Below are positions 2,368-17,117 of a DNA stretch of 64,000 nucleotides, piece by piece; position 1 is the stretch's first letter; each line of letters begins with the position of its first letter. A program made the position numbers and the translations under genes. This DNA is from Rhodoligotrophos appendicifer. GTDB lineage: Bacteria; Pseudomonadota; Alphaproteobacteria; Rhizobiales; Im1. Below the pieces are notes generated by a model, which had not been told where the DNA came from, searched no databases, and saw nothing but the letters and a program-made list of their open reading frames with translations. The stretch spans positions 62,001-126,000 of the forward strand of contig NZ_VHKL01000009.1 in assembly GCF_007474605.1 (NCBI RefSeq), given 5' to 3'.

Positions 2368-3698
2368 GTGGCTGCGTTTCCTGGCTTCGCCCTCAGCCAA
2401 CGGTCCATCTTCAGCAACAGAACCGAGAGGCCGATAAGCAAGATGCCGCCGACGAGAAAGGCGAGAGCCGTGTCGATGAGGGTGCCGAGGGTCACGACGT
2501 AGAGATACAGAACCTCAACGCCAAAGCCGACCAGACCCGCGGTATGGGCGAATCGACCGGCGCGGCTATCGGCAATGCCGACCATCCACAGGGCGGTCGC
2601 GAGCACGACGACACCGATGGCGAGGCTCGGCCAGAGATCGACGACGCGATGCGCATCAGCGAGCCACCAACAGAAGGCGACCGCGCTCGCCGTGACAGCG
2701 ACGGCAAGCCCTGCATGGGCGCCATTAAACGCGCCGCGATAGGACGCGGAGAAAGACAGGAGGGCGCCCAGCGCCACAGCAGCCGCAGCGTAGTATTGCC
2801 ACCCCAGGCGAGCCCCGTCGTGGACCTCGGCCGCGAACTGGATGAAGAATACCGCCAGAAACAGCGCGATCATCACGGGCAAGACCAGATCTTCGCCGAG
2901 ATCGCCCAGGCGGCCACCCAAGCGTCCAGCGGTGAGCAGGGAGGCCAGGCTCCAGATACACAGTGCGAGTGCGGCCCCCAAGGAGAGAGCTCCCGCCGCC
3001 GACCAGTCCAGCGCTTCAGCCATTGCAATCAGGGTCATGGCGAGCCAGAACAGAAGGGCCACGATGAACGCCTTGCGGGTCATCGGCGTATTCAGCCAAA
3101 CCGAGAGGGCGCCGGCGGCGACAAGCACAGCGAGGCTCGGCCAGTGGGGAGCGATGCCGGCATCGACGGTCCACTCCCATGCCCAATAGCAGATCCCCGC
3201 CAGGCTCAGCACGGTGGCGGCGACCGAACGCGTGAGAAGGGCCGCACCAAGGCAGCCCACGATCCAGAGCAGCACCGCATCGCGGAACTCGCCCGAGAGA
3301 TGATAGGTCTGGCCGACCAGAGCAATGGCCGCCGCGAAGACAAGGCCGGCCACCAGGACCGCCGCATCAGCCATGGCCGGCAGGTCACGCTGCTTCAGGA
3401 TCGCGGCTATCAGGTAAGCCAAACCCAGGCCCGTGACCAGCATGATCAGGCGCACGAGTCGGGGAAAATCTTCCCAGTTGGCGGCGATGAAAGTGATCAC
3501 GCCGAGCCCCAGAAGAAGAGCGCCCAACATCGCGACGAGATTGGAGACGGTCAGCGTGGAGCGCTCGGCTGCAGCCGCAGACAATATGGCGGCGGCCCCC
3601 TCCTCCGTCACCCAACCCTGGGCGCGCCATTGGGGTAGATCGGCGGCCAGACGCTTCCGGTAGGATCTGACAAGCAGGGCATGTCTCCAACCGGGCAT
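2364..3698 (-). CDS. DUF2157 multi-spanning membrane protein
   Basis: About 444 residues from ATG 3698; an upstream TTG at 3737 is possible. The N-terminal ~45 residues form the soluble DUF2157 helical hairpin (RSYRKRLAADLPQWRAQGWV), followed by roughly ten or more hydrophobic helices to the C-terminus. The family is an inner-membrane protein of unknown role, regularly coupled to a GDYXXLXY protein, as here with an ATGA overlap. The cytoplasmic N-terminus plus a partner with a single extracytoplasmic domain suggests a two-component membrane complex. Nothing in the sequence reveals a substrate. Confidence 0.85.
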   Translation of the reverse strand: MPGWRHALLVRSYRKRLAADLPQWRAQGWVTEEGAAAILSAAAAERSTLTVSNLVAMLGALLLGLGVITFIAANWEDFPRLVRLIMLVTGLGLAYLIAAILKQRDLPAMADAAVLVAGLVFAAAIALVGQTYHLSGEFRDAVLLWIVGCLGAALLTRSVAATVLSLAGICYWAWEWTVDAGIAPHWPSLAVLVAAGALSVWLNTPMTRKAFIVALLFWLAMTLIAMAEALDWSAAGALSLGAALALCIWSLASLLTAGRLGGRLGDLGEDLVLPVMIALFLAVFFIQFAAEVHDGARLGWQYYAAAAVALGALLSFSASYRGAFNGAHAGLAVAVTASAVAFCWWLADAHRVVDLWPSLAIGVVVLATALWMVGIADSRAGRFAHTAGLVGFGVEVLYLYVVTLGTLIDTALAFLVGGILLIGLSVLLLKMDRWLRAKPGNAAT

Positions 3699-5034: not shown

Positions 5035-7080
5035 GTGTCGTTTCGTTCGCTCTATTCGCACGGATTTGCCAGGGTTGCAGCAGCCACATATCGCTGCGCG
5101 ATCGCCGATCCGAAGTCGAACGCCAAGTCGATCCTGCGGCTTGCCCAGCAACTGCACGAGAAATCCGTCGCCGTGGCGGTGTTTCCGGAGCTCACCCTCT
5201 CAGGGTATGCGATCGACGACCTGCTGCTGCAGGAGGCCCTGCTCAACGCGGTGGAAGACGCGGCGGCACAGATCATCGAAGCATCCCGCGAGCTGCTGCC
5301 GCTGTTGCTGATCGGCGCCCCCGTTCGTTTCCGCAACCGGCTCTACAATGCGGCGCTCGTCATTCATCGCGGACGCCTGCTCGGGATCGTTCCCAAAAGC
5401 TATCTGCCCAATTATCGCGAATTCTACGAGCATCGCCACTTTGCGTCCGGCGCCGGCGTGACGGGGGAAGAGGCCTCCTTCGCAGGCCATGCAGTCCCCT
5501 TCGGAACCGACCTGCTTTTCTATGCGTCCGACCAACAAGGGCTGACGGTTCACGCTGAGATTTGCGAAGATGTCTGGGTGCCGGTGCCGCCGAGCTCGCA
5601 TGCGGCGATGGCAGGCGCCACCGTCATGGCAAACCTTTCGGCCTCCAACATCACGGTGGGAAAGGCCGAAACCCGCGAGGCCCTGTGCCGATCGCAGTCC
5701 GCGCGATGCCTGGGAGCCTATATCTATGCGGCCGCCGGCGCTGGTGAATCGACCACCGACCTCGCCTGGGACGGACAAGTGTCAATCCACGAGAATGGCG
5801 CCCTCCTGGCGAATGGCGAGCGCTTTCCGGCCGGAGACGAGGTCGTCATCGCCGATATCGACCTCGACCTGCTGGTTCAGGAACGCGCCCGCCAAGGCAC
5901 TTTCGACGACAATGCCCGACATCTCTCCCAAGGCATAATTTATCGGCGGGTCGCGTTCGAGCTGGCGCCGCCAATCCAAGACAGCGGATTTCATCGCACT
6001 GTCGAGCGCTTTCCCTTCGTCCCCTCAGATCCGGCTCAGCTCGCGCAAGACTGCTATGAAGCCTATAGCATTCAGGTCACCGGCCTCGCGCAGCGGCTCC
6101 GCGCGATCAATGTGAAAAAGGCGGTGATCGGCGTTTCCGGTGGGCTGGATTCAACGCATGCGCTGATCGTGGTGGCGCGGGCTTTCGATCAACTCGGACT
6201 GCCCCGAAGCAACATTCTCGCATACACAATGCCGGGCTTCGCCACCTCCGAAGGCACCAAGACGAATGCCATCCAACTGATGGCCGCGTTGCAAGTCTCC
6301 GCCGCCGAACTCGACATCAAACCCGCCGCGCGACAGATGCTCGGCGACATCGGCCATCCCTTTGGGATGGGGGAGCCGGTTTACGACGTCACCTTCGAAA
6401 ACGTGCAGGCAGGCCTCCGAACGGACTATCTCTTTCGGCTGGCGAACTACCATAGCGGCATCGTGATCGGCACCGGCGATCTCTCCGAGCTGGCGCTTGG
6501 ATGGTGCACTTATGGGGTCGGCGATCAGATGTCCCATTACAATGTGAATGCCGGCGTTCCCAAGACCTTGATCCAACATCTCATCCGGTGGATCGGCCGT
6601 TCAGGGCAGTTTCAGGACGAGGCGGTCGCCGGCATATTGGACTCCATCCTGGCGACGGAAATTTCCCCAGAGCTGATCCCCGTCGCGCCGGGAGAGGCGC
6701 CGCAGAGCACGCAGGCAAAAATCGGGCCCTATGAACTGCAGGACTTCACTCTGTTCTATACGCTCCGCTACGGCTACCGCCCCTCGAAGATCGCTTTCAT
6801 GGCCCTCATGGCTTGGGAGGAAAAGTCCCGAGGCCAGTGGCCCGTCGGGTTTCCGGAGGAAAGGCAGCGGCAGTATTCGCTGGCTGAGATCCGCCAATGG
6901 CTGAAGGTGTTCATCGAACGCTTCTTCGGCATGAGCCAGTTCAAGCGGTCGGCCATGCCGAATGGACCCAAAGTGGCGGCAGGCGGGTCATTGTCGCCGC
7001 GAGGCGACTGGCGGGCACCCTCGGATGGGAATGCGGCAGTCTGGCTGGAGGAACTCGCCCGGAACGTGCCCAGCCATTAG
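5035..7080 (+). CDS. nadE: Glutamine-dependent NAD(+) synthetase
   Basis: Makes NAD from deamido-NAD, ATP and glutamine in the cytoplasm. I choose GTG 5035 (681 residues) because GGAG lies six bases upstream and because homologous proteins begin with F-x-S-L-Y-x-H-G-F; the frame is open back to 4870. The N-terminal nitrilase-type glutaminase has its triad at E52 (FPELTLSGY), K121 (VPKSYLPNY) and C177 (AEICEDVWVP). The C-terminal N-type ATP pyrophosphatase has the P-loop SGGLDST at 368-374 and D-L-S-E-L-A-L-G-W further on. This is the long two-domain type, not the short ammonia-only enzyme. It is convergent with the EPS polymerase gene, with the stop codons overlapping by four bases. Confidence 0.93.
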   Translation: MSFRSLYSHGFARVAAATYRCAIADPKSNAKSILRLAQQLHEKSVAVAVFPELTLSGYAIDDLLLQEALLNAVEDAAAQIIEASRELLPLLLIGAPVRFRNRLYNAALVIHRGRLLGIVPKSYLPNYREFYEHRHFASGAGVTGEEASFAGHAVPFGTDLLFYASDQQGLTVHAEICEDVWVPVPPSSHAAMAGATVMANLSASNITVGKAETREALCRSQSARCLGAYIYAAAGAGESTTDLAWDGQVSIHENGALLANGERFPAGDEVVIADIDLDLLVQERARQGTFDDNARHLSQGIIYRRVAFELAPPIQDSGFHRTVERFPFVPSDPAQLAQDCYEAYSIQVTGLAQRLRAINVKKAVIGVSGGLDSTHALIVVARAFDQLGLPRSNILAYTMPGFATSEGTKTNAIQLMAALQVSAAELDIKPAARQMLGDIGHPFGMGEPVYDVTFENVQAGLRTDYLFRLANYHSGIVIGTGDLSELALGWCTYGVGDQMSHYNVNAGVPKTLIQHLIRWIGRSGQFQDEAVAGILDSILATEISPELIPVAPGEAPQSTQAKIGPYELQDFTLFYTLRYGYRPSKIAFMALMAWEEKSRGQWPVGFPEERQRQYSLAEIRQWLKVFIERFFGMSQFKRSAMPNGPKVAAGGSLSPRGDWRAPSDGNAAVWLEELARNVPSH

Positions 7081-8348
7081 GAGAACGCCGCCTTCTGGGC
7101 CGGTTCACCCTGGCGATCGAAGCCCCGATGAAAGACTATTCCATTCAGGACGCTGAAGGTCAGGAACAGCGCCATGGTCCGCAAGGGATAATCGACGAGG
7201 GAATGAAGCAGGATGAACAGCAGGGACAAAAAGGCCGCCTGCTGCAGAGGATTGCCGCGGATCTGAACAAATCTGAGGAATAGAAGAACAAGATAGGCAA
7301 GGATCGCAACGACGGTGAGCACGCCTCCCTCGAAGGTCAACTCCAAGTATTCGTTATGGGCATGATTGACGTAGGGCTGGAAGATCATGTCGCCTCTCTC
7401 ATAGAGCTGGTAGGCGGTCTGAAAAGTGCCAAAGCCCACTCCGACGGGCCAGTTTTCCTTTATGCCCGCGACCGTCGTGCTCGCAAATTCCGTGCGCCCA
7501 AATTCGGGGTCCAAGGTTTCCACTGTCAGCTTGGACCAAACGCCGATCGCATAGAGGGAGACCAGCGTGAATGCCAGGACCACGACGACACCCCTCAGAT
7601 TCGAACGCGCAGAGAGCAGGAATACGGCCGAGAGGGTGATGAGCAGTCCCAGGATGGCGCCAGCCCGGGACCCCGCGGCCAGCAGAAACAGCAAGATCGT
7701 CGCGAGAAGGAGCAGGGTCGCGCGGTAGTAGGATTTCGAGAGGCCATAGAAGATCATCAGCGGTATGGACACGTAGATCAGGGACGAGAAGTGATTCACG
7801 TTGGCGAAGAAACCCGCCTTGATCGTGAATGGCAGGAAGCCTTCCACCGATACGTCCTCGGCCAAGGAATACTGGATTGTCGCAGCCAGAAGATTACAGA
7901 TCACCCCGATGAAAAAGAATGGCAGCAAACCGACCACCTGATCGGGCCGAAGTTTCAGGACTGCCCAGAACATGCCGAGGCCAGCGCCCACATAGACAGC
8001 ACATTCGAGGGTGCGGTTGACGGCTGAACTGATGAAGCCGAAGCGCGGTCCATCGGGCGGGGATAAGCCGGACAAGAGGGGTGCACGCAGCGGCGCGAGC
8101 CATGCGCTCGGCCAGGGGAGAAGCTGCAGCACAAAGAGCGATGCTATGGCAAGGAACAGCCAGTGGAGTTTTCGATCGAGGGCGGGGGTCGGCGTGCCAT
8201 AGAGCACCCCGGCGGACGCGACGAGAACCCAGATCTGAATCATCAGATCCGTGTAGAGACCAGACGCGGTTCCTCCGCCGACGAGCAATGCCAGCAAAAG
8301 CCCCAATCCCAGAAGATATTTGGAGCCTTCTGCACGACCAAGGCTCAC
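7077..8348 (-). CDS. O-antigen ligase / Wzy-polymerase-like membrane protein
   Basis: 423 residues with about eleven hydrophobic helices and a large periplasmic loop before the last helices. Within that loop and the following helix lie W-P-V-G-V-G-F-G-T-F and N-H-A-H-N-E-Y-L-E, the Wzy_C signature (G-x-G-x-x-x-F ... HNxxL) shared by O-antigen ligases and polysaccharide polymerases. It is last in the EPS cluster, with its GTG overlapping the TGA of the TPR gene, so polymerising lipid-linked repeat units on the periplasmic face is the likely role. Ligase and polymerase cannot be told apart by sequence. No other polymerase candidate is present in the cluster. Confidence 0.82.
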   Translation of the reverse strand: MSLGRAEGSKYLLGLGLLLALLVGGGTASGLYTDLMIQIWVLVASAGVLYGTPTPALDRKLHWLFLAIASLFVLQLLPWPSAWLAPLRAPLLSGLSPPDGPRFGFISSAVNRTLECAVYVGAGLGMFWAVLKLRPDQVVGLLPFFFIGVICNLLAATIQYSLAEDVSVEGFLPFTIKAGFFANVNHFSSLIYVSIPLMIFYGLSKSYYRATLLLLATILLFLLAAGSRAGAILGLLITLSAVFLLSARSNLRGVVVVLAFTLVSLYAIGVWSKLTVETLDPEFGRTEFASTTVAGIKENWPVGVGFGTFQTAYQLYERGDMIFQPYVNHAHNEYLELTFEGGVLTVVAILAYLVLLFLRFVQIRGNPLQQAAFLSLLFILLHSLVDYPLRTMALFLTFSVLNGIVFHRGFDRQGEPAQKAAFS

Positions 8349-9589
8349 TCGGCGAGCTTCTCGATCCGCAGATCGCTCATCGTCAGTTCACCGGAGAACC
8401 GATAGAGCCAACTGTCCGTCGTCAGGCCACTGCTCAGTCGGAGGATCTGGGCTGGGCAATCCGCCTGGCCGACGGCGAAACTCGACTCAAGAGGCTGTGT
8501 CGCGAAGGACCCTTCGGGAATCTCCAGCCTCCCCAGTTCCTCCCGCGAATGCGCGCATTGAAGCGACCAGAACAGATCTTTGGGGAAATGCAGGGCTCGT
8601 CCAGAGACATTCACCCGAAGACGATAGCGGCCTGGTGGAACCTGCAGATATTGCTGCAACAGAACACCCTTTACCGGTTTGTCAAAGAAGCGGAGTTTTG
8701 CCCCCGTCTCTCGGCCGGGCGGCAGAAACGTCAGTTCAAAGCCGGACTGACGGGGGAAACTCCAGTCAAAGGGGCGGCGTGAGAAGATTGGCGCAAAGCT
8801 GCCGTTGAAGACATAGCCGGCAGAGGATCTCTCCTGCTCCGACAGAGTAAACAGAAAGACCCGGTAAGCCGTCTCATACCGTTTCTGCTGGACGTAACTG
8901 GCCAAGACGAGTGCCAGTTCATCGGGCGTCGGCGGGGCGGCGGAACTTCTGAGATCGAGCAAGAGACGACTTGCCTCGTCGGTGGTGGCCGGATCGCGGC
9001 CCAGGGACCGAAGGAGGGACAGCCGCCACGGCACATTGGCCACAAGTGCAGCACGGATGGAGGCGTAACCGTCGGGGTCTGCAAGAATGGCGGGAAAGGC
9101 TCCCGCCACATCGTCGAATTTTTCAGGCCAGCGCCGCAACAACACATTGATGCCGCCGACCGCGGAGGCCACGTCTGCCTCTTCTATCGACCTGACGATC
9201 TTTCGCTGAAGGGCGTGAATCTCCGCCTTCGACAGTTGAAGGGCGTGATCAAAGTATCGGTAAGCCTCTTCCGTCTGCCCGGTACGATACAAGACTTCAC
9301 CGACCAGACTATACAGTCTCGCGTCACCTACGTTAAACGGCAAGGCAGAGCGCAACCGATCATCCAGTCCCCGCAGTTCCGACGGCTGTTCGGATCGGTT
9401 CAACTGCTCCGTCGCCGTTAGGACAAGGGCTTCGACGTTCAGCGGATCCAGGGTGAGAGCCAGAGACGGCTCGATCCGCTCAAGACTTCGACTGAGCCCG
9501 ATCAACAACGCCATCACGATAAAGCCGAAGGCGACGAACAAGGTCAGAAAGCGCCGAATGCTTGCCGCGGACCCTCCGATCTGAGCCAT
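8345..9589 (-). CDS. Membrane-anchored TPR protein of the EPS cluster
   Basis: From ATG 9589 about 414 residues; an upstream ATG at 9628 is possible. One N-terminal membrane helix (FLTLFVAFGFIVMALLIGL) precedes a periplasmic part. TPR-like repeats follow at about residues 45-150 (LVGEVLYRTGQTEEAYRYFDHALQ), then an uncharacterised C-terminal beta-rich half. The 5' end overlaps the kinase gene upstream by about 110 bases, which is unusually long. The start of wzy overlaps its stop. By position it is likely an assembly or scaffold protein for polymerisation or export. I do not recognise a named family for the C-terminal half. Confidence 0.7.
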   Translation of the reverse strand: MAQIGGSAASIRRFLTLFVAFGFIVMALLIGLSRSLERIEPSLALTLDPLNVEALVLTATEQLNRSEQPSELRGLDDRLRSALPFNVGDARLYSLVGEVLYRTGQTEEAYRYFDHALQLSKAEIHALQRKIVRSIEEADVASAVGGINVLLRRWPEKFDDVAGAFPAILADPDGYASIRAALVANVPWRLSLLRSLGRDPATTDEASRLLLDLRSSAAPPTPDELALVLASYVQQKRYETAYRVFLFTLSEQERSSAGYVFNGSFAPIFSRRPFDWSFPRQSGFELTFLPPGRETGAKLRFFDKPVKGVLLQQYLQVPPGRYRLRVNVSGRALHFPKDLFWSLQCAHSREELGRLEIPEGSFATQPLESSFAVGQADCPAQILRLSSGLTTDSWLYRFSGELTMSDLRIEKLAE

Positions 9590-11852
9590 GCTCCCCCCGA
9601 TCGTCCAATTGTGCCCTCTCGGCCCCATAGGCGTAATATTGGTAATTCAGATGTTTGTAGTCATAGTCGAACTTGCTGATCGAAAATTTGGACATGGCCG
9701 CGCCGGCCACACTCGCACCAGCGGCGCGCAAGCGCTTCAGCGCGGCCTTGGCGGATTTCCGGGTTACCTGATTTGTTGAAATCACCATCAGCGTACCCTC
9801 GACCAACCGGCTCAAAATGGGTGCATCGGAGAGACCGACAACGGGCGGAGCATCAATGATGATGAGATCGAAGCTCCCGGTGAGACTGTCGAGGAGAGAA
9901 GCCATTCGGGGAGAGGAAAGAAGATCAGCCGGATTGGGAGGGATCGTTCCGGAGGTCAGCACGGTGACATTATCGAACTTGGTCGAGCGAAAGATGCCCG
10001 GAACATCTTCCCTTCGAACAGTATTGGTCAGCATGTTGCTGAGGCCGAGAATATTACTCAACCCAAACAGGCGGTGTAGACTAGGCTTTCGCATGTCGGC
10101 ATCAATCACAAGAACATTCGCACCCAGGATCGCGAAATCCTGCGCGAGCTTGAATGATGTGGTCGATTTTCCTTCGGAGGGTTCTGCGCTGGTGACCAAA
10201 AGGGTGTTCGGAACACCATCGGCACCCGAGAATTGCAAAGATGTCCTCAGGGACCGGTAAGCCTCGGAAAGGGCTGATTTCTGATCCGTAACGTTGGCCC
10301 CGAGGTCCCGATCATCGCTCTTGGGAAGAATGCCGAGAACGGTCAGGCCAAGCTCTTTCTCTACCTGCTCAGGCCTGGTGAATGTATTGTCCATCATCTC
10401 CAGGACATAGATTATCAAGGCTCCCAGCGACATGAAGAGCGCCAACCCCACTGCAACGTTCTTCAACATGCTCGGAGAAAAGGGGGCGGATGGCGCTATC
10501 GCAAGATCGACAATGGCAGCATTCTGACTTTTGAGCTCAGAGCCTATTGTTGCCTCGTTCATTTTCGATATCAGATTTTCATATTGAGACCTATTTGAAT
10601 CGACCTCACGCCGGAGGATCGTGTATTTTATACTTTTATCGTTAAATTCTATATTTTGCTTTTCCATATCAATGAGCTTAGCGCGGAGGTCGGATTCCTT
10701 GTTGATTGCTTCCTGATATTTCAACTTAATGGAATCAAGGATGGCCATGATCCCGTCATCGACCAACCGACGCAATTCTGCAATCTGGGCCAATAGCTGC
10801 TTCATTTCCGGGAAGTTCGGCTTCAGTAAGCCCAGCTTCTGCTGATACTGGCCGCTGAGATCAGCGATGGTCCCCCGCAGCTTCGTCAAACCTTCGCTCT
10901 CCAGCACCTGCGGCAGGCTGCCTCCCCTGCCCGCATCGATCTGCGCCACCAGACGGCCCGTGTCCAAGCGCTCCTGGATCGCGGTCGCCAATGCAGAGTT
11001 CAGGGTCTCGATGTTGGCGCCAATCAGCGAAAGCTCTTTTCCGGTTATGGTGATTCCGGCCGTGCGCGCGTATTCGACGAGCGCCTGCTCCGACTTCTGC
11101 AGCTTGTCCTTGACCTGCAGAACCTGTTCTTCAATGAACTGACGTGCCAGAGACGACGTCTCGCTCGTTCGGTCGACCCTCTGGTCGATGAAGCTCTGGG
11201 CAATCTGGTTGGCCACGTCCTTGGCAAAGAGAGGGCTCTGGTCTTGGAAGGTGATCGAGATCAAGCTCGTGCCCTGGACCAGACTTGCCGTGACTCCATG
11301 AAGAACGCGACCCACGGCCATGTTTTCACGCTGCTCCGACGACAGATCCTCAAGAGTCGGGGGCTGTCCCATCCCGAATGCTCTATAAAAGATGTTCGCG
11401 ACGGAGAATTCGGCCTTGGGGAACAGAAACTGAGGTTTCTCACTCAATTGAAGCGCATAGGCGACGCGCTGGGCCAGGGCGCGGCTGGTGAGCTTCTCAC
11501 GCGCCGTCAGGAACGCCCTGACGTCACTGGCTTCGCTGATCGCCTCCATATCCTGGAACACTTTTGCCGAGGGAACCAAGACCTCAAGGCGGGCGGTGGC
11601 CCGGTAGAGGGGCGTCTGCATCATGGTCACCGCCACGCCACACACCACGCCGGCCAAGCAGAGGACCAGGAGCAGCCAGCGATAACGAACGACATAGAGG
11701 AAGATTTTAAAGGGGGTGAGCCTGTCCTCCTTGTCGGTGTCTTCCCGACCATAATAAACATCGAGCTCACGCGGCCCCTCATGATGGGCCGGCAGGGCTT
11801 GCACAGGCGCCCCAATCGCTGCCCCGGGATAGCGGCCCTGCCTATCCAACAT
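9480..11852 (-). CDS. Wzz-type polysaccharide co-polymerase fused to BY-kinase (tyrosine autokinase)
   Basis: 790 residues. The Wzz domain starts at about residue 45 with a membrane helix at 58-78. A long coiled-coil periplasmic region lies at about 205-445 and a second helix at 463-485. The cytoplasmic BY-kinase has Walker A SAEPSEGKSTTS (555-566), Walker A' VLVIDADMRKP (580-590) and Walker B LIIIDAPP (663-670). A tyrosine cluster at 730-742 has six tyrosines and is the autophosphorylation site. Such proteins set polysaccharide chain length through cycles of phosphorylation and oligomerisation. The matching phosphatase is two genes upstream (12704-13507). Oddly, 48 residues follow the tyrosine cluster and overlap the next gene. 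AGGGG stands seven bases before the ATG. Confidence 0.93.
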   Translation of the reverse strand: MLDRQGRYPGAAIGAPVQALPAHHEGPRELDVYYGREDTDKEDRLTPFKIFLYVVRYRWLLLVLCLAGVVCGVAVTMMQTPLYRATARLEVLVPSAKVFQDMEAISEASDVRAFLTAREKLTSRALAQRVAYALQLSEKPQFLFPKAEFSVANIFYRAFGMGQPPTLEDLSSEQRENMAVGRVLHGVTASLVQGTSLISITFQDQSPLFAKDVANQIAQSFIDQRVDRTSETSSLARQFIEEQVLQVKDKLQKSEQALVEYARTAGITITGKELSLIGANIETLNSALATAIQERLDTGRLVAQIDAGRGGSLPQVLESEGLTKLRGTIADLSGQYQQKLGLLKPNFPEMKQLLAQIAELRRLVDDGIMAILDSIKLKYQEAINKESDLRAKLIDMEKQNIEFNDKSIKYTILRREVDSNRSQYENLISKMNEATIGSELKSQNAAIVDLAIAPSAPFSPSMLKNVAVGLALFMSLGALIIYVLEMMDNTFTRPEQVEKELGLTVLGILPKSDDRDLGANVTDQKSALSEAYRSLRTSLQFSGADGVPNTLLVTSAEPSEGKSTTSFKLAQDFAILGANVLVIDADMRKPSLHRLFGLSNILGLSNMLTNTVRREDVPGIFRSTKFDNVTVLTSGTIPPNPADLLSSPRMASLLDSLTGSFDLIIIDAPPVVGLSDAPILSRLVEGTLMVISTNQVTRKSAKAALKRLRAAGASVAGAAMSKFSISKFDYDYKHLNYQYYAYGAERAQLDDRGEHGSDRRVRGKHSALSDLVRRLRLYRDGVVDRAQSKS

Positions 11853-11921: not shown

Positions 11922-12707
11922 TCAAAGCGGCATCACCGCAAGACGCGTGGCGCTCGTCGCCATGCCCAAAGCCTGCATCAGATTATTCATCGCCACCTTG
12001 CTTTGGGACGTGAACACGACGATCACGTCGCCGCCATAGATGTTGGGGTTTGATCGTTCGCCGTTGCGGATCGCATCGACGTCGTAATTGGCGACCAATC
12101 TGCTGCCGCCATAGCTGCGATAGACATAGACCTTGGTGGGATCAGCGATGTTGCTCAAGCCGCCGGCCATGGCCACCGCATCGAGAAGAGAGGAATTGCT
12201 CGAGACCGGATAAATTCCCGCCTTGGTCACCTCCCCATCCATCGTCACCCGCTGACCGACGGACTCCTTCATGAAGACCGTGACGTCCGGCGACTGCAGG
12301 TAGTCTTCCTCGTAAGCCTTCTCGATCTCCTGCTCCAACTGGCGAACGCTCTTTCCTGCCGCAGCCACCGAGCCGATCAGCGGCAAAGAGACATTGCCGG
12401 TCGCATCGACCTGAACGGTGCGGTCAAGGCTGTCGACCTGAAAGACGTCTATGGCCAGAACATCATTGGCCGAGATGGGTTGCTCCGCACCATTGGTGTG
12501 ATCAGGAGGAGGGAGTTCGGACACCATCCGCAGACCAGCGCCCGCCTGACCTTTGCCAATCGCGGCAGGGTGGACCGTGCCATCGGCATTGGCTCCCGCC
12601 AGAACCACCCTTTCGGGCCCCCTTGCGGAACAGCCCAAAGAGTTGACACAGAGGATCACGACGAACACAGGCATGATCCGAGAAAATGCGCCGCAGCCTA
12701 TGATCAT
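11922..12707 (-). CDS. Polysaccharide export outer-membrane protein (Wza/OPX family)
   Basis: 261 residues. A hydrophobic signal segment ends at N-S-L-G-C (Cys26); the -3 position is Ser rather than Leu, so lipidation is plausible but the lipobox is imperfect. The poly_export domain follows (about 80-160: ISANDVLAIDVFQVDSLDRTVQVDATGNVSLPLIG), then a SLBB domain (about 165-245: MDGEVTKAGIYPV ... YGGDVIVV). It is the outer-membrane channel for the exported polymer and works with the Wzz/kinase encoded next. It starts inside the phosphatase stop (ATGA), so the two are translationally coupled. It is shorter than E. coli Wza (about 360 residues), as is common in short OPX proteins with one SLBB domain. 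Confidence 0.88.
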   Translation of the reverse strand: MIIGCGAFSRIMPVFVVILCVNSLGCSARGPERVVLAGANADGTVHPAAIGKGQAGAGLRMVSELPPPDHTNGAEQPISANDVLAIDVFQVDSLDRTVQVDATGNVSLPLIGSVAAAGKSVRQLEQEIEKAYEEDYLQSPDVTVFMKESVGQRVTMDGEVTKAGIYPVSSNSSLLDAVAMAGGLSNIADPTKVYVYRSYGGSRLVANYDVDAIRNGERSNPNIYGGDVIVVFTSQSKVAMNNLMQALGMATSATRLAVMPL

Positions 12708-13507
12708 GACGCGCCCCCAGAAAAGAGGCGGTCCAGCACTCCCTGCCTTTCAGGGCCAGACTTCTGCGCCTTTTCCGGCCGGCAGATCTGCGGCATCGGC
12801 TCATCAGCCAGAATGGCTGCCGGTCGGAATATGACCATGTTGTCGGCTTCCTCTTCGCCAACGAGCGTCGCCAAACCGGCTCTCGCTCGAGACAGGCAGG
12901 GACGACGGGCCTTCGTGCCGTGAGCATCCGTCGCAACGACAGCGACCCGACCCTCGGCCAGCAGTTTCTCGGAGTTGATCCGCGCGGCCCGTCCGAACGC
13001 GCCGGTAATGGATTCGGCGGTCAATTGCAGGAGGCAGCCAAGGTCATTGAGCTGCACCACCATCTCGTAATGAGTCTCGATCCACGTCATCCGCTCCGGA
13101 TGCGTCAGAACAGGCACAAATCCCTGCCGCATCAGACGCGCAACAAGATCTCCGATCCGAGGCGGCAAAACGTGGTGCGGCGGCTCGAACAGGAAGTATC
13201 TCGTCCCGTTGAGGGTGGGAACGTCCCCAAAGGCAAGCCTCTCCGGAAGGTTGGGCGCGATATGAACATCCGCCCCCACGTAAAGCTCCAGCGGAATATC
13301 CCGATTCAAAAGCTCATATCGCAGGTGCTCAGTCGCTTGCTCGATGGTGGACGTCGTGTTCTCAAACACCCCCGGCATGATGTGCGGCGTGCACACCATG
13401 TGCGTAATACCGTCATCTACAGCCATCCGGGCCATCTCAATCGATGTGGCCAGTGTCGGAGAGCCATCATCTATTCCGGGCAGAATGTGAGAATGCAGGT
13501 CGATCAT
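12704..13507 (-). CDS. PHP-type protein-tyrosine phosphatase (CpsB/YwqE-like)
   Basis: 267 residues from ATG 13507; a GTG lies one codon before. Metal-binding PHP motifs are complete: D-L-H-S-H near the start, G-I-D-D-G, C-T-P-H at about 40, L-T-H-P-E-R in the middle and A-T-D-A-H-G near residue 195. These enzymes use a metal cluster to dephosphorylate the tyrosine-rich tail of the cognate BY-kinase, which is encoded two genes downstream in the same transcript. CpsB-type phosphatases are best known from Gram-positive capsule loci; here the enzyme takes the place usually held by a low-molecular-weight phosphatase in proteobacterial EPS loci. Confidence 0.9.
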   Translation of the reverse strand: MIDLHSHILPGIDDGSPTLATSIEMARMAVDDGITHMVCTPHIMPGVFENTTSTIEQATEHLRYELLNRDIPLELYVGADVHIAPNLPERLAFGDVPTLNGTRYFLFEPPHHVLPPRIGDLVARLMRQGFVPVLTHPERMTWIETHYEMVVQLNDLGCLLQLTAESITGAFGRAARINSEKLLAEGRVAVVATDAHGTKARRPCLSRARAGLATLVGEEEADNMVIFRPAAILADEPMPQICRPEKAQKSGPERQGVLDRLFSGGAS

Positions 13508-13620
13508 CACCGGAACTCAGTCGTCAATGAAAACAGCGGGACAGATGGCAGGAACGGCCCCTGCCGGGGCAGCCCGGTCGGGCGAGCGCCGTGATCCAAG
13601 CCTCGTCGCGGCCGCGGCCA

Positions 13621-14124
13621 TTACTTGCTTACGGAATCGCGTTCATCATGAGAGCGTACGCGGACGAGTCCCCAGGTGACCCCTCCGCCGACGAGCAGGG
13701 CCGCCGCCGCGTACCCGTTAGGTCGCGGCCGTTGTCTTGGATCCGCCGAGGCCGCTTCAATGGAAACGCAAATGCCCCCAGGGGATTGCTCCACCCTCAG
13801 CGTCGAGTCCGACGGTAGTTCCAGGAAGCAGCCCCGGCCAAGATGCGCGGTGGCAGAGGACCGCTGACCGACAATTATGCGGTTACCGATCGAAATGGGC
13901 GTCAGGGCCTCCACGGGCAGATATCCCATTGCCTCCGAACGCATCACATCTCCCTTCACAGAATTGATCCGGCCAACCGCGGCGCCCCGGGGCTGCTGAG
14001 AGAGTATGCAAATGCATGGATCCACGGGCTCCGCCCTAAGAAGTTGTGCTGACGAAACAATAACCGCCCCTGTTACGGCACATTTCAACACGATTTTTCT
14101 CATTAGACGATTTTCTACCAACAT
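13621..14124 (-). CDS. FecR-like exported protein of the EPS cluster, function unknown
   Basis: 167 residues, starting at ATG 14124 (AGG eight bases upstream) or at an internal ATG at 14103. An N-terminal signal (IVLKCAVTGAVIVSSAQLLRA) is followed by a domain of about 90 residues with the pattern G-R-I-N-S-V-K-G-D-V ... I-G-N-R-I-I-V-G ... T-A-H-L-G, resembling the FecR/DUF4880-associated beta domain. A second hydrophobic stretch near the C-terminus (YAAAALLVGGGVTWGLV) may anchor it. Four cysteines lie in the mature part. It sits between the sugar transferase and the phosphatase genes on the same strand. A role in envelope assembly is inferred from position only. Confidence 0.65.
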   Translation of the reverse strand: MLVENRLMRKIVLKCAVTGAVIVSSAQLLRAEPVDPCICILSQQPRGAAVGRINSVKGDVMRSEAMGYLPVEALTPISIGNRIIVGQRSSATAHLGRGCFLELPSDSTLRVEQSPGGICVSIEAASADPRQRPRPNGYAAAALLVGGGVTWGLVRVRSHDERDSVSK

Positions 14125-14185: not shown

Positions 14186-15463
14186 TTATTTTGATCCAAA
14201 CCCCGTTATTATTGTTTGTATAGTCTTCAAGACAATGACCACGTCCAACCATGGCGAGAAATTCTTGATGTAGTAAAAGTCGTAGTGAAGTTTTCCGAGA
14301 ACATCATCGACGGCCGCGACATGGCCTTGGTTCACCTGCGCCCAGCCAGTGATCCCGGGGCGGACGATATGTCGGTATGGATAGAAGGGAAGTTCCTCCT
14401 CATACCAGCGAGACAACACCACTGCCTCAGGGCGAGGCCCAATCCAACTCATCTCGCCGCGAAGAATGTTCAGCAGCTGAGGCAGTTCATCGATACGGGA
14501 TCTTCGTAAGTAGCGGCCCAATCGGGTGATCCGTGCGTCCCCGACCTTGGTGATGGCCCGCTCTCTGTCGTGGCCCTCCTCATCACTGACCTTCATGGAG
14601 CGGAACTTGAAGACGGTGATCGGCTGGCCACGATAGCCAATCCGCTCCTGCCGGAAGAAGACCGGGCCCGGCGAGTCCAGCCTGATCAGGACTGAAACGG
14701 CTGCCAGGAACGGCAGAAGACCCAAAAGCGCGATCGCTGCGGTCAACCAATCAATGGCCTGCTTGATCTTGATGTAGGCATGATTGGGGCTCAAGGAGCC
14801 GAGGGTATTCTCAGACAAATGCTCAATTTCGACGCGCCCCGTGAGCGATTCACGTACCTGTTTGACGTGAAAGACAGGGATGCCTGAAAGGGCACTCTGG
14901 GTGATATACCGGACCCACTCCTGGGACAGGTTCGCGCGCAGATCCGCCACGACCCCGCTTATGTCGTGGACCTTCAGCTTTGCCGAAGTGACACGAAGCC
15001 AGTTCACGCCCGGGATCGTTTCCAGCTTCTCGACGTCGCCACCAGGGACAACCGCCAGCCGGTAGGGTTCGATGCCTCGCACGGCCACCCCATGGCCAAA
15101 ATACCAAAGGGTGCAGAGCAGAAAACTCGCCGCCGCCTGAAACCGACTATAGTCGAGCCGGAAGAAAAAGATCGAGAGGAAGACAGCGCCGTAGGTAATG
15201 GCAAAGGTCGGGATGATATAGCCTGCCGCCGCGACGCCAGGAAAATTGCCGATCCGGCGATAAGCAAAGAAGCCTGCGACATGAGCAAGGAAGGTGCCCA
15301 GTATCGTCGTTTGGAGATTTGCCTGGAGAATAACGGTACTATCGAGCGACATTCTGACAAGAGCAGGCGCCACGATAGCGAAGCAAAAACCCCCAATGAG
15401 CTGAAATCGAATACGCGAGATGAACTTTCTGCGAATTCCAAGATTTTCGGCGGCAATACTCAA
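14186..15463 (-). CDS. Undecaprenyl-phosphate sugar-phosphate transferase (priming enzyme)
   Basis: 425 residues, TTG start. Four to five hydrophobic segments fill the first ~130 residues, then a CoA-binding-like cytoplasmic domain, then a membrane hairpin (IDWLTAAIALLGLLPFLAAVSV) and the bacterial sugar transferase domain. The domain carries the invariant P-G-P-V-F-F-R-Q-E-R-I-G, F-K-F-R-S-M, R-R-S-R-I-D-E-L-P-Q, G-P-R-P-E and P-G-I-T-G-W-A-Q-V-N. It transfers a sugar-1-phosphate to undecaprenyl phosphate and starts each EPS repeat unit. The fused N-terminal membrane region is the PHPT/WbaP-long form. It is first in the EPS operon after the NusG paralogue, and an ops-like sequence lies in its leader (15521-15536). 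Confidence 0.9.
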   Translation of the reverse strand: MSIAAENLGIRRKFISRIRFQLIGGFCFAIVAPALVRMSLDSTVILQANLQTTILGTFLAHVAGFFAYRRIGNFPGVAAAGYIIPTFAITYGAVFLSIFFFRLDYSRFQAAASFLLCTLWYFGHGVAVRGIEPYRLAVVPGGDVEKLETIPGVNWLRVTSAKLKVHDISGVVADLRANLSQEWVRYITQSALSGIPVFHVKQVRESLTGRVEIEHLSENTLGSLSPNHAYIKIKQAIDWLTAAIALLGLLPFLAAVSVLIRLDSPGPVFFRQERIGYRGQPITVFKFRSMKVSDEEGHDRERAITKVGDARITRLGRYLRRSRIDELPQLLNILRGEMSWIGPRPEAVVLSRWYEEELPFYPYRHIVRPGITGWAQVNQGHVAAVDDVLGKLHYDFYYIKNFSPWLDVVIVLKTIQTIITGFGSK

Positions 15464-15520
15464 TGCACTTCAGGACGATATAATCGCTGCTCTTTAGAAA
15501 TGAAACGCTTAGTTCGCAGA

Positions 15521-15536
15521 GATAAAGCTACCGCAC
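15521..15536 (-). promoter_or_regulatory. ops-like element in the EPS operon leader
   Basis: Read on the minus strand, the leader between the NusG-paralogue gene and the sugar transferase contains GTGCGGTAGCTTTATC. It shares GCGGTAGC with the enterobacterial ops sequence (GGCGGTAGCGTG) that recruits RfaH to paused RNA polymerase. It stands about 60 bases upstream of the transferase start and immediately after a palindrome. The match is seven to nine bases and could be chance, but the position, directly downstream of an RfaH-like gene and ahead of a polysaccharide operon, is the one expected. Confidence 0.4.
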
Positions 15537-15558
15537 TCTCGGGTGACTCACCCGTGAG
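15536..15558. promoter_or_regulatory. 23-bp palindrome upstream of the ops-like element
   Basis: CGGGTGA / TCACCCG arms (15540-15546 and 15548-15554) flank one central base. After one mismatch on each side the symmetry continues with CTC / GAG, for 23 bp in all. On the minus strand a run of seven T lies before it rather than after it, so it is not an ordinary intrinsic terminator for the NusG gene. It may be an operator for the EPS promoter or a pause hairpin working with the ops-like motif. Confidence 0.45.
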
Positions 15559-15591
15559 ATGATAAAAAAACCGACTTCATGGCGGACTTAG

Positions 15592-16158
15592 TCAGGCTAT
15601 TGTGACTAGATCTTTTGATTCAAGCGTCACCAAGACTTCGCCGTTCATTATGCTGAGCAACACCTGAGCCCGCCCTCCCGGGCTGAGACGTTCAAGCTTT
15701 CCCACAAGTTGCGCGAAGGGTCCGGACGCAATTCGCACCGCACCGCCCTCCTGCAAGGTCGAACTAAAATCCAATAATCCCCGGTCATCAGCGAACTCGA
15801 TGAAGCTTTCCACCAAGCCGACGGGACAAGCCACCGGCAAGCCGCCCTGCATAATCAGCGAGCGGACTCCATAGGTGCCATTTATCGAGCGCCAGGTGTC
15901 GCGGGACAGATCAAGCGGCACGAACATGTATCCTGGAAAGAATGGTGCGAATCGCGTCAGAAGCCGCCTCGCGTGGCGAACGGTCTTCATCTGCCGCGGA
16001 AGAAAGGGCTGATAGCCCTGCATGCGCAGGTGATACGCGGCCTTCTCCTCCCGAGCCAAGTGGACGCCCACTGCGTACCACCGGCGCCGACATCGGCCGC
16101 CGCTCGATTCCCCCTGACTTCTCTCCCGAATGCTCTCTTCCGCTAAAGACATTCCCAT
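15592..16158 (-). CDS. NusG-family specialised elongation factor (RfaH-like), EPS cluster
   Basis: About 188 residues from ATG 16158, where GGAG is close upstream; another ATG at 16152 and an open frame to a TTG at 16302 are alternatives. The NGN domain (about 30-130) contains W-Y-A-V-G-V-H, P-F-L-P-R-Q, F-P-G-Y-M-F-V and G-V-R-S-L-I, typical of NusG paralogues in surface-polysaccharide loci. A KOW-like C-terminus follows (GGAVRIASGPFAQLVGKLERL). It is not the housekeeping NusG, which sits in the ribosomal-protein region. It precedes and is co-oriented with the EPS genes, so it probably prevents premature termination in this long operon. Confidence 0.85.
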   Translation of the reverse strand: MGMSLAEESIRERSQGESSGGRCRRRWYAVGVHLAREEKAAYHLRMQGYQPFLPRQMKTVRHARRLLTRFAPFFPGYMFVPLDLSRDTWRSINGTYGVRSLIMQGGLPVACPVGLVESFIEFADDRGLLDFSSTLQEGGAVRIASGPFAQLVGKLERLSPGGRAQVLLSIMNGEVLVTLESKDLVTIA

Positions 16159-16302
16159 CCATCTCCACGACCGGCGGCCGCTGAACTGGGCGCGACCCGG
16201 GCCGTTACGGCTCCACCGCTCGTCGACTTCACTCCAGAAGAAGACAAATCGGCCGCCTGAAACTTCATTCCCGGCCTCTGCGACCGTTTTCCTGACACCC
16301 AA

Positions 16303-16646
16303 CGGGGAGAGTCGTATTCCATGTAAATAATCTTAAGAGAGAAGGTCAACAAGGAAAATATCACGACCGTAAACAATGTTTGTACTTACATTACAGTCGT
16401 TCATGTAGTTATGTTCATAAAAGCTATACATTTATATTACAAGAAATTGCCGATAACGACAACATCCGACTTTGTCAATTTTGCAATGAAGGCGTTATCC
16501 TCCAGGGAACAGCGCGCGACGGAGGATTACATTGCCGTCACCATAAAGCGGCAGAGATCCGAACCGGGACTGCTTCTGCAACGGACCCCAAAAAAGAGGC
16601 GATCGCGACTATGTCGAGGAGATTGTGACTGCGCCTTTCGAGGGCA
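16303..16646. other. AT-rich intergenic region upstream of the EPS cluster
   Basis: About 340 bases without a convincing gene. From 16310 to about 16500 the composition is markedly AT-rich (TTTATATTAC, CTATACATTTAT, TTCATAAAAG), in contrast to the GC-rich flanks. Short open frames exist on both strands but show neither a known domain nor a good ribosome site. Because the NusG paralogue is transcribed leftward from here, this is the likely promoter and control region of the EPS cluster. Confidence 0.5.
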
Positions 16647-17117
16647 TCACAGGAAGCCGATCCAGCGGCCGGCCAACAAGACCAAGAGCCAAGCCACGCC
16701 CGAAAGAACCGCCAATACGCGAACGCGCAGCTCAATTTCACCGCCCGCCAGGGCGCGCCGGTACTGGTGGCCATAGTGCTGAAGGGCAACAATGACCAGC
16801 GCAGCCGCGATGATCACAACCTTGACCAGGAACGCCGGATTCGAGAGATATTCAGCCGGCTTTACAGAAAAAAGCCACAGGCCGGTGAGCACTGCCAAGC
16901 ACAACCCAAAAGCAGCCATGCGCGATAGAAAGGGGGCTAACACCTGCACCGGAACGGACCGAAAAAATCCCGCAAGCCTGAGGTCCAGCGGGAGAATCGC
17001 TCCGATCAGAAGAGCGATCCCGAGAATATGCGTTGCATTGACGAACAGATATGCAGTGCCGGACCGCCGAAGCAGGAGGGCCCCCGGCCAATTGCCGATC
17101 CATTCGACGACGGACAT
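16647..17117 (-). CDS. Four-helix small membrane protein (DUF6644/CopD-like)
   Basis: 156 residues with four hydrophobic helices at about 20-45, 60-85, 92-115 and 130-155. The first helices carry A-T-H-I-L-G-I-A-L-L-I-G and the third segment V-A-L-Q-H-Y-G-H, histidines in positions similar to CopD-type and DUF2214/DUF6644 proteins. It probably sits in the inner membrane. It is preceded by a DUF6152 gene with a 13-base gap on the same strand, a combination seen repeatedly in proteobacteria. No function is established. Confidence 0.65.
   Translation of the reverse strand: MSVVEWIGNWPGALLLRRSGTAYLFVNATHILGIALLIGAILPLDLRLAGFFRSVPVQVLAPFLSRMAAFGLCLAVLTGLWLFSVKPAEYLSNPAFLVKVVIIAAALVIVALQHYGHQYRRALAGGEIELRVRVLAVLSGVAWLLVLLAGRWIGFL

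Follow-up and report, generated by a model that had tools for sequence, protein, structure and literature searches.

A hairpin joined to an ops-like core as a candidate recruitment signal for divergent RfaH-like NusG paralogues of Alphaproteobacteria

In the 64,000-nucleotide stretch of Rhodoligotrophos appendicifer DNA analysed here (the window; Pseudomonadota, Alphaproteobacteria, Rhizobiales in the GTDB lineage), a gene for an RfaH-like NusG paralogue stands directly ahead of a run of exopolysaccharide (EPS) genes, and the question that this locus raises is whether the leader between them tells RNA polymerase to take up the paralogue. According to the accessible text of a 2020 survey, 18% of RfaH-like genes are in Alphaproteobacteria and E. 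coli RfaH was then the only RfaH-like protein whose recruitment was known in detail (PMC7593976). We conclude that the leader very probably holds a cis signal, composed of a nascent-RNA hairpin and an ops-like core, that is read by the adjacent paralogue.

All features of the locus lie on the minus strand. The paralogue (15592..16158, with an in-frame ATG at 16158) has the NGN and KOW architecture of the NusG family (Pfam NusG PF02357, 53.7 bits) and exists alongside a separate housekeeping NusG encoded elsewhere in the genome. A 128-nt leader (15464..15591) runs from its stop (15592) to the start of the sugar-transferase ORF (15463), and in this leader GTGCGGTAGCTTTATC occupies 15536-15521, with an exact GCGGTAGC octamer, the ops-like core, at 15534-15527. 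The hairpin (15536..15558) is an inverted repeat of two 11-nt arms, 15536-15546 and 15548-15558, with 1 nt between them and 91% complementarity; its 5' arm is 15558-15548, and its 3' arm, 15546-15536, holds a conserved TCACCC that is separated from the core by a 6-nt spacer, GAGAGT. The whole hairpin-ops element (15521..15557) is matched by a covariance model, R1, from whose seed it was left out. The first gene past the element encodes a sugar transferase (Bac_transf, 14186..15463) and is followed by a 167-aa ORF without a Pfam match that we presume to be a member of the operon (13621..14124, from the ORF list), a CpsB/CapC-type phosphatase (12704..13510), a polysaccharide export protein (Poly_export and SLBB, 11922..12707), a chain-length/tyrosine-kinase-like protein (9480..11852; Wzz just above its cut-off and a ParA-type ATPase, with GNVR below cut-off), a TPR-like protein (8345..9628; TPR matches below their cut-offs) and a Wzy_C polymerase/ligase-like protein (7077..8348), the final same-strand gene ahead of a convergent NAD synthase. 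Pfam matches to the paralogue and to the ORFs downstream bear out the preliminary description of an RfaH-like NusG gene directly ahead of same-strand EPS genes; its coordinates for the 128-base leader and for the ops-like sequence are all right, and the ops core that it saw there is exact. The 23-bp palindrome that it noted in passing beside the core is likewise real, as an 11+1+11-nt inverted repeat, and is an integral half of the signal, a covarying hairpin joined to the core.

Within the window the octamer is not rare. GCGGTAGC occurs twice against 1.29 expected, and 39 of 100 shuffles reach two; with up to three mismatches, GCGGTAGCNTTAT is found at chance level (28 versus 30.0 expected), the leader site being its only exact match. 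Arithmetic from the window-wide expectation gives ~0.0013 copies of GCGGTAGC for one strand of the 128-nt leader. The fold of the whole leader has no unusual stability (z 0.36) and is uninformative; the hairpin part folds at -12.2 kcal/mol, compared with a mean of -5.2 when the upstream arm is shuffled. With about 1.3 copies of the bare octamer to be expected in the window, the case depends on related loci.

We searched the window protein against 397 genomes of the host order and took a match at E < 1e-14 to define a paralogue genome, of which there are 77; the set of 80 paralogue loci of the order is completed by G350 (4e-13) and by a second locus each in G000 and G202. A search for bare GCGGYAGC up to 700 nt past the paralogue stop gave matches at 25 of 32 loci, and CACCC stands just ahead of GCGGYAGC at all 25 even though the search pattern was without it; one extra match, at +520 in L033, lacks CACCC. 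Among the seven misses, L005, L018, L027 and L041 have no nearby element, and in L024 an exact element lies upstream of the paralogue gene. The other two, same-genus relatives (L006 2047-2087 and L007 1369-1410), keep the hairpin and have a GCGGAGC core without the T that RfaH reads in ops. Across the order, an element lies within 1.3 kb at 45 of the 80 paralogue loci and no further than 240 nt from the stop at 43, the remaining two being L078, at 1.1 kb, and L058, where the distance is overstated because the gene has an internal stop; at 35 of the 80, no element lies within 1.3 kb. An overlapping set of 80 named loci has an element within 700 nt in 61 cases. Elements are present at 19 of 22 Mesorhizobium-labelled loci, with the window-type 6-nt spacer and compensating 5' arms (for example ACTTCCGG/CCGGAAGT in L139). 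The comparison of leaders across orthologous loci, set beforehand as the test that could refute the proposal, thus finds the GCGGTAGC block conserved on each count (25/32, 45/80 and, in the overlapping set, 61/80).

The consensus right after the hairpin 3' arm TCACCC is [T/G]GCGGTAGCNT, with T or G ahead of the core. The window's TGCGGTAGCTTT agrees with the E. coli 12-mer GGCGGTAGCGTG at 9 of 12 positions, including all 8 of the core. Among 61 distinct rows, position 11 of the 12-mer is occupied by T in 45 rows and by C in 3, and position 12 is G in 33; the core T, the base that RfaH is said to flip out, is T in 59 rows, the search pattern having allowed C as the sole alternative. We note that elements past the 32-locus set were gathered with patterns demanding CACCC and GCGG(Y)AGC, and that these letters do not vary is therefore partly an effect of selection; hairpin pairing, spacer covariation and position are free of it. 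Several loci differ in copy number or core. L189 has a tandem pair of hairpin-ops elements (3525-3568 and 3593-3638) downstream of one paralogue, L149 has a second same-strand element (5329-5365) ~1.8 kb downstream of its first (3571-3607), and G230 also has two pattern matches, while elements in opposite orientations (1433-1470, minus; 2817-2858, plus) flank one paralogue in L060. The core is GCGGAAGC, a change of T to A, in L178 (3787-3830) and L180 (3848-3892), ~270 nt downstream of the paralogue.

The association also holds at the level of whole genomes. The exact pattern TCACCC-N5/6-GCGGTAGC occurs in 58 of the 77 paralogue genomes, compared with 16 of the 320 genomes that lack a paralogue match (Fisher 4.7e-38, with kinship ignored). 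Restricted to 5-nt spacers of the form NNAN[TG], the counts are 50/77 and 3/320, and 13 of the 16 matches in genomes without the paralogue are therefore off-consensus; G039 and G011, which are among the 58, have only off-consensus 6-nt spacers. The strict pattern is absent genome-wide from 19 of the 77 paralogue genomes, of which G002 and G003 hold a near-copy without the T and G068 has GCGGCAGC. Many paralogue genomes without an adjacent copy carry one elsewhere. We fetched 20 distant sites, mostly from such genomes, and at 12 of them ran one chosen ORF starting within 1.2 kb downstream (the first ORF or a later one) against Pfam. All 12 ORFs encode enzymes of the kind that polysaccharide or nucleotide-sugar loci would be expected to contain: UDP-glucose/GDP-mannose dehydrogenase, GDP-mannose dehydratase/epimerases, ManC, a WecB-type epimerase, DegT aminotransferases, a nucleotidyltransferase, a glycosyltransferase and, least specific, an enzyme of the asparagine synthase type (L108). 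One of the 20 sites, L120, looks like chance, and several overlap open frames on one or both strands. In G138, two near-identical elements with identical local context (L104 and L105; C1:468435, plus, and C1:506500, minus) face opposite ways at a distance of ~38 kb, with the paralogue (~500.6 kb) between them, and look like an inverted duplication.

Evidence for the hairpin comes from folding and from covariation. In their minimum-energy folds, 59 of 64 elements have four or all five of the CACCC bases paired. When spacers were swapped among 63 elements with the 5' arms kept, the elements' own combinations gave -857.0 kcal/mol compared with -731.7 (sd 13.1), and 0 of 2000 permutations were as good; the same procedure on 114 unique elements gave 0 of 5000 for those with a 5-nt spacer (n=93) and 1 of 5000 for those with a 6-nt spacer (n=21). 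A MAFFT alignment of the hairpin misaligned the 5' arms, and pair counts were therefore taken from a model-based alignment, together with the alignment-free spacer swap. In the model-based alignment, which leans to its own structure and includes 8 reverse-strand matches among 71, 89.8% of cells pair, 5 of 10 pairs have changed at both partners (a count attained by 2 of 500 shuffles) and the covariation score is 0.142 versus 0.048 shuffled, a value reached by 0 of 500 shuffles. At the level of sequence, this covariation indicates that the hairpin forms. Stems are mostly 8-11 bp with TCACCC, and their last paired base abuts GCGG in 47 of 114 elements and lies 1-5 nt away in 67, which would place the stem end roughly 10-15 nt behind a pause at core position 11, the position that we infer from the E. 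coli ops pause and the pause consensus.

The host genome offers a second case. Three NusG-family genes were found in it, namely the housekeeping NusG (C17), the window gene (C9) and a further paralogue (C4). The C4 leader, which was read before the motif search there, has the same anatomy as the window element, CCGGGTGAC..GTCACCCGG then GCGGCAGCATTTTC; this element (about 6470-6410 on the minus strand of L013; C4:198426-198466 in G000) has a GCGGCAGC core and a 5-nt spacer, and ORFs for ManC, a sulfotransferase, Wzy_C and a glycosyltransferase (Pfam) lie downstream. Covariance model R1 was built from ten elements, with that of C4 included and that of the window excluded, and recovers the window element at 28.3 bits (E 7.3e-7 over 389,012 bases). 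At E <= 0.001 it finds two sites only in the whole host genome, the window and C4, the latter by construction and both under strict filters with which weak matches can be lost. A plain pattern with up to two mismatches is unselective, its 206 matches being barely above the 161 of a reversed control. A third exact pattern match in this genome, C7:335903, was rejected, as it lies inside a 694-aa ORF on the other strand and no hairpin was seen there. The combined signal is absent from the housekeeping nusG loci examined (L001, L009-L011); in L009 there is just an isolated GCGGCAGC on the opposite strand.

Proteins that have an element in cis or in trans occur throughout most of the paralogue tree, on which presence of the cis element requires 12 changes against 27 for shuffled labels. 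The window and C4 paralogues lie on different branches, and that of C4 joins same-genus relatives in a group whose cores are altered too (GCGGCAGC or GCGGAGC), which suggests, without proving, that the two units were separately inherited and are perhaps insulated from each other. Seven paralogues without an adjacent element (L068, L073, L082, L093, L096, L097 and L098) group with E. coli RfaH (support 87) and are possibly a second RfaH-like lineage in the order, the grouping being uncertain because the E. coli RfaH branch is long; G039, the genome of one of the seven, has two off-consensus pattern matches elsewhere.

The protein itself is RfaH-like and divergent. The best NCBIfam model for the window protein is RfaH TIGR01955, at 74 bits versus a cut-off of 144.5, and RfaH is the best model for all ten proteins tested (74-136, all below cut-off). 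Membership of LoaP (52 versus the NF033641 cut-off of 125) and of UpxY (57.8 versus the NF033644 cut-off of 100) was rejected for the window protein, and a PDB sequence search did not separate RfaH from NusG (5e-7 versus 8e-7). We counted residues in an alignment with E. coli RfaH of 105 element-bearing rows, which include repeats because the named loci overlap the genomes of the order search, and 53 rows without an adjacent element. The element-bearing rows keep W4, F51, Y54 and F56 (105/105 each), T72 (103), G74 (104) and R138 (101). The autoinhibition residue E48, whose replacement is reported to free RfaH from autoinhibition (PMC7593976), is E in only 2 of 105 and A in 61, the window protein having A. 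The RfaH H65-T66-T67 site is mostly R-W-R (R 80, W 105 and R 103 of 105), and at the position of the NusG Rho contact F165, which is I in RfaH, 103 of the 105 rows have M or L (loop positions as given in PMC7593976). Five residues of RfaH are described as contacting ops, namely K10, R16, H20, T72 and R73 (PMC2871177); in the element-bearing rows T72 is kept in 103, H20 in 46, R16 in 20, R73 in 6 and K10 in 4, and T72 is equally general without an adjacent element (52/53). Among the positions compared, N70 differs most between the two sets (95/105 with an element versus 32/53 without). Since most of the contact residues are missing, DNA readout cannot be a simple copy of that by RfaH, and another set of side chains may read the same ops DNA.

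AlphaFold2 models both the window protein (pLDDT 86.3) and the L074 protein (pLDDT 83.3) with a beta-barrel KOW, models that are indicative only, since the fold that AlphaFold2 picks for an RfaH homologue is reported to vary with the alignment used (preprint PMC13015549). In G138, the genome of L074, the elements lie 5 and 32 kb away from the paralogue gene, with none just downstream. Whole-length Foldseek matches of the window model include NusG and recruited RfaH, at TM-scores of ~0.4-0.5; RfaH on the ops-paused complex (8phk, 6c6s) reaches only ~0.45-0.52, and only 95-101 columns were aligned with autoinhibited RfaH. Judging from the models and the residue counts, the autoinhibited alpha-helical KOW and the E48-R138 salt bridge that mark RfaH appear to be lacking.

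The element extends beyond the host order. At E <= 0.001 the covariance model matches in 61 of 385 genomes of the host class, and 14 of the best 20 loci of that search (one of which is the host's own C4 site) have an RfaH-like ORF within 1.5 kb, on the other strand in L215. At E <= 1e-5, 11 of 349 genomes of the host phylum match, 8 within the class and 3 from one outside family; of these three loci outside the class, L228 has an RfaH-like ORF, and none was seen in the stretch examined at L229 and L236. The hairpin-ops element has no Rfam match. Identity with the JUMPstart RNA (RF01707) was rejected, as that covariance model matches 0 of 121 genomes of the host order under strict filters, with which, among 14 control genomes, it rings only in E. 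coli; it finds three leader sites in the two E. coli K-12 regions scanned. In those three ops leaders a 5-bp CUGGU/GCCAG stem is followed by two G and then GCGGTAGCGTG, the same order of stem and core as in the hairpin-ops element, and the architecture is therefore shared and the stem rebuilt. In the literature searched, to which subscription papers are mostly external, we found no description of an ops-type element in Alphaproteobacteria. The RfaH/ops-type control unit that the preliminary description had proposed is supported by conservation and refined in two respects, in that the protein falls below the RfaH cut-off and the element is not JUMPstart according to Rfam. We read it as a widespread RfaH/ops-type control unit with a divergent RfaH-like protein, for which a mechanism can be drawn from homology and anatomy.

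By analogy with E. coli RfaH, we infer a sequence of pausing, non-template-strand readout, NusG exclusion, antitermination and ribosome recruitment. RNA polymerase, having transcribed the paralogue, would pause at the core, which fits the pause consensus, with the hairpin ~10-15 nt behind the RNA 3' end. The NGN domain of the paralogue would then bind the exposed non-template GCGGTAGC on the paused polymerase, and the bound paralogue would displace or pre-empt NusG and travel with the enzyme, on which it could suppress Rho-dependent polarity and couple translation across the EPS operon (15463-7077). We note that the E. coli ops pause is described as of the backtrack type and not a hairpin pause (PMC6391919).

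It might be argued instead that the protein chiefly recognises the nascent RNA hairpin, in the manner of LoaP, and that GCGGTAGC is merely a pause that gives it time. The hairpin covaries and TCACCC is kept, the RfaH-type DNA contacts K10 and R73 are mostly missing, and LoaP is reported to need an RNA hairpin and to be aided by a downstream pause (PMC12691694). However, the core is the E. coli ops octamer and not just any pause, it was found by a search that did not require a hairpin, the T described as the flipped-out base read by RfaH (PMC7819879) is T in 59 of 61 distinct rows, and the window protein scores 52 against the LoaP family cut-off of 125; we therefore consider a purely LoaP-like mode of recognition unlikely. 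A combination of the two is a tentative possibility to which we give rather more weight: one protein, without RfaH-type autoinhibition, might read both the RNA hairpin, as LoaP does, and the non-template ops core, as RfaH does, so that the two-part signal would replace fold-switching as the source of specificity. Pairs of paralogue and element might in that case have drifted apart, such that two can coexist in one genome, as with the 6-nt spacer and GCGGTAGC of the window and the 5-nt spacer and GCGGCAGC of C4.

Two other explanations would deny the element any role in recruitment. A hairpin that lies just past the paralogue stop codon, as it does in most element-bearing loci, could be an attenuator, a terminator or an RNA-processing site at the 3' end of the paralogue mRNA. 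Yet no T-run directly follows the stem, the sole terminator-like site in 15300-16800 being 16463-16446; copies also precede other polysaccharide genes at sites not next to the paralogue, and the sequence past the stem is conserved, so that we regard this explanation as very improbable. That the GCGGTAGC match is a coincidence can be given next to no credence: an octamer expected ~1.3 times per 64 kb invites the suspicion, but conservation, genome association and covariation refute it, and the window element was recovered by a covariance model built without it. A hairpin and ops-like core that form a signal for the adjacent RfaH-like paralogue are the reading that we prefer.

These results put forward a candidate cis signal for much of the alphaproteobacterial set of RfaH-like genes; the element is compact and has no Rfam match, and with it regulons can be predicted from sequence. 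Its targets appear to be exopolysaccharide genes, in groups such as Mesorhizobium, Methylocystis, Labrys and Rhodoblastus. The results also bear on the evolution of RfaH. In a 2026 preprint, the loss of autoinhibition is tied to action in cis without ops (PMC13015549), whereas the proteins described here, which look non-autoinhibited, pair with an ops-type signal, including away from their own gene; that pairing makes the link of fold-switching to sequence-specific recruitment directly testable.

Lastly, the unit can be set beside the systems already known. Like E. coli RfaH with ops/JUMPstart (RF01707), it consists of a NusG paralogue and a GCGGTAGC core in the leaders of long polysaccharide operons, with a stem just upstream of the core and targets away from the gene. 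It differs in that the stem, 5 bp of CUGGU/GCCAG in JUMPstart, is mostly of 8-11 bp with TCACCC, in that the element often follows directly on the paralogue gene, and in that the protein rarely has E48 (2/105), K10 (4/105) or R73 (6/105) and has a KOW modelled as a beta barrel. LoaP and the dfn leader hairpin of Bacillota likewise join a NusG paralogue to a leader hairpin and a nearby pause; that hairpin, however, is of the UNCG type, no ops sequence is described for the dfn leader in the accessible part of the source (PMC12691694), and the window protein is far below the LoaP cut-off. For UpxY of Bacteroidota, likewise a NusG paralogue, the gene is reported to lie inside its own polysaccharide operon (PMC7593976), as here, although the window protein scores 57.8 against a UpxY cut-off of 100. 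The 'monomorphic' beta-RfaH proteins of the preprint (PMC13015549) are similar to ours in that they are predicted to have a non-autoinhibited beta-KOW and lie beside long polysaccharide operons; for those, the preprint text proposes ops-independent co-translational recruitment in cis, whereas here there is a conserved ops-type signal, which is also found away from the gene. The type of control worked out in detail in E. coli thus appears to have a widespread, differently built cousin.
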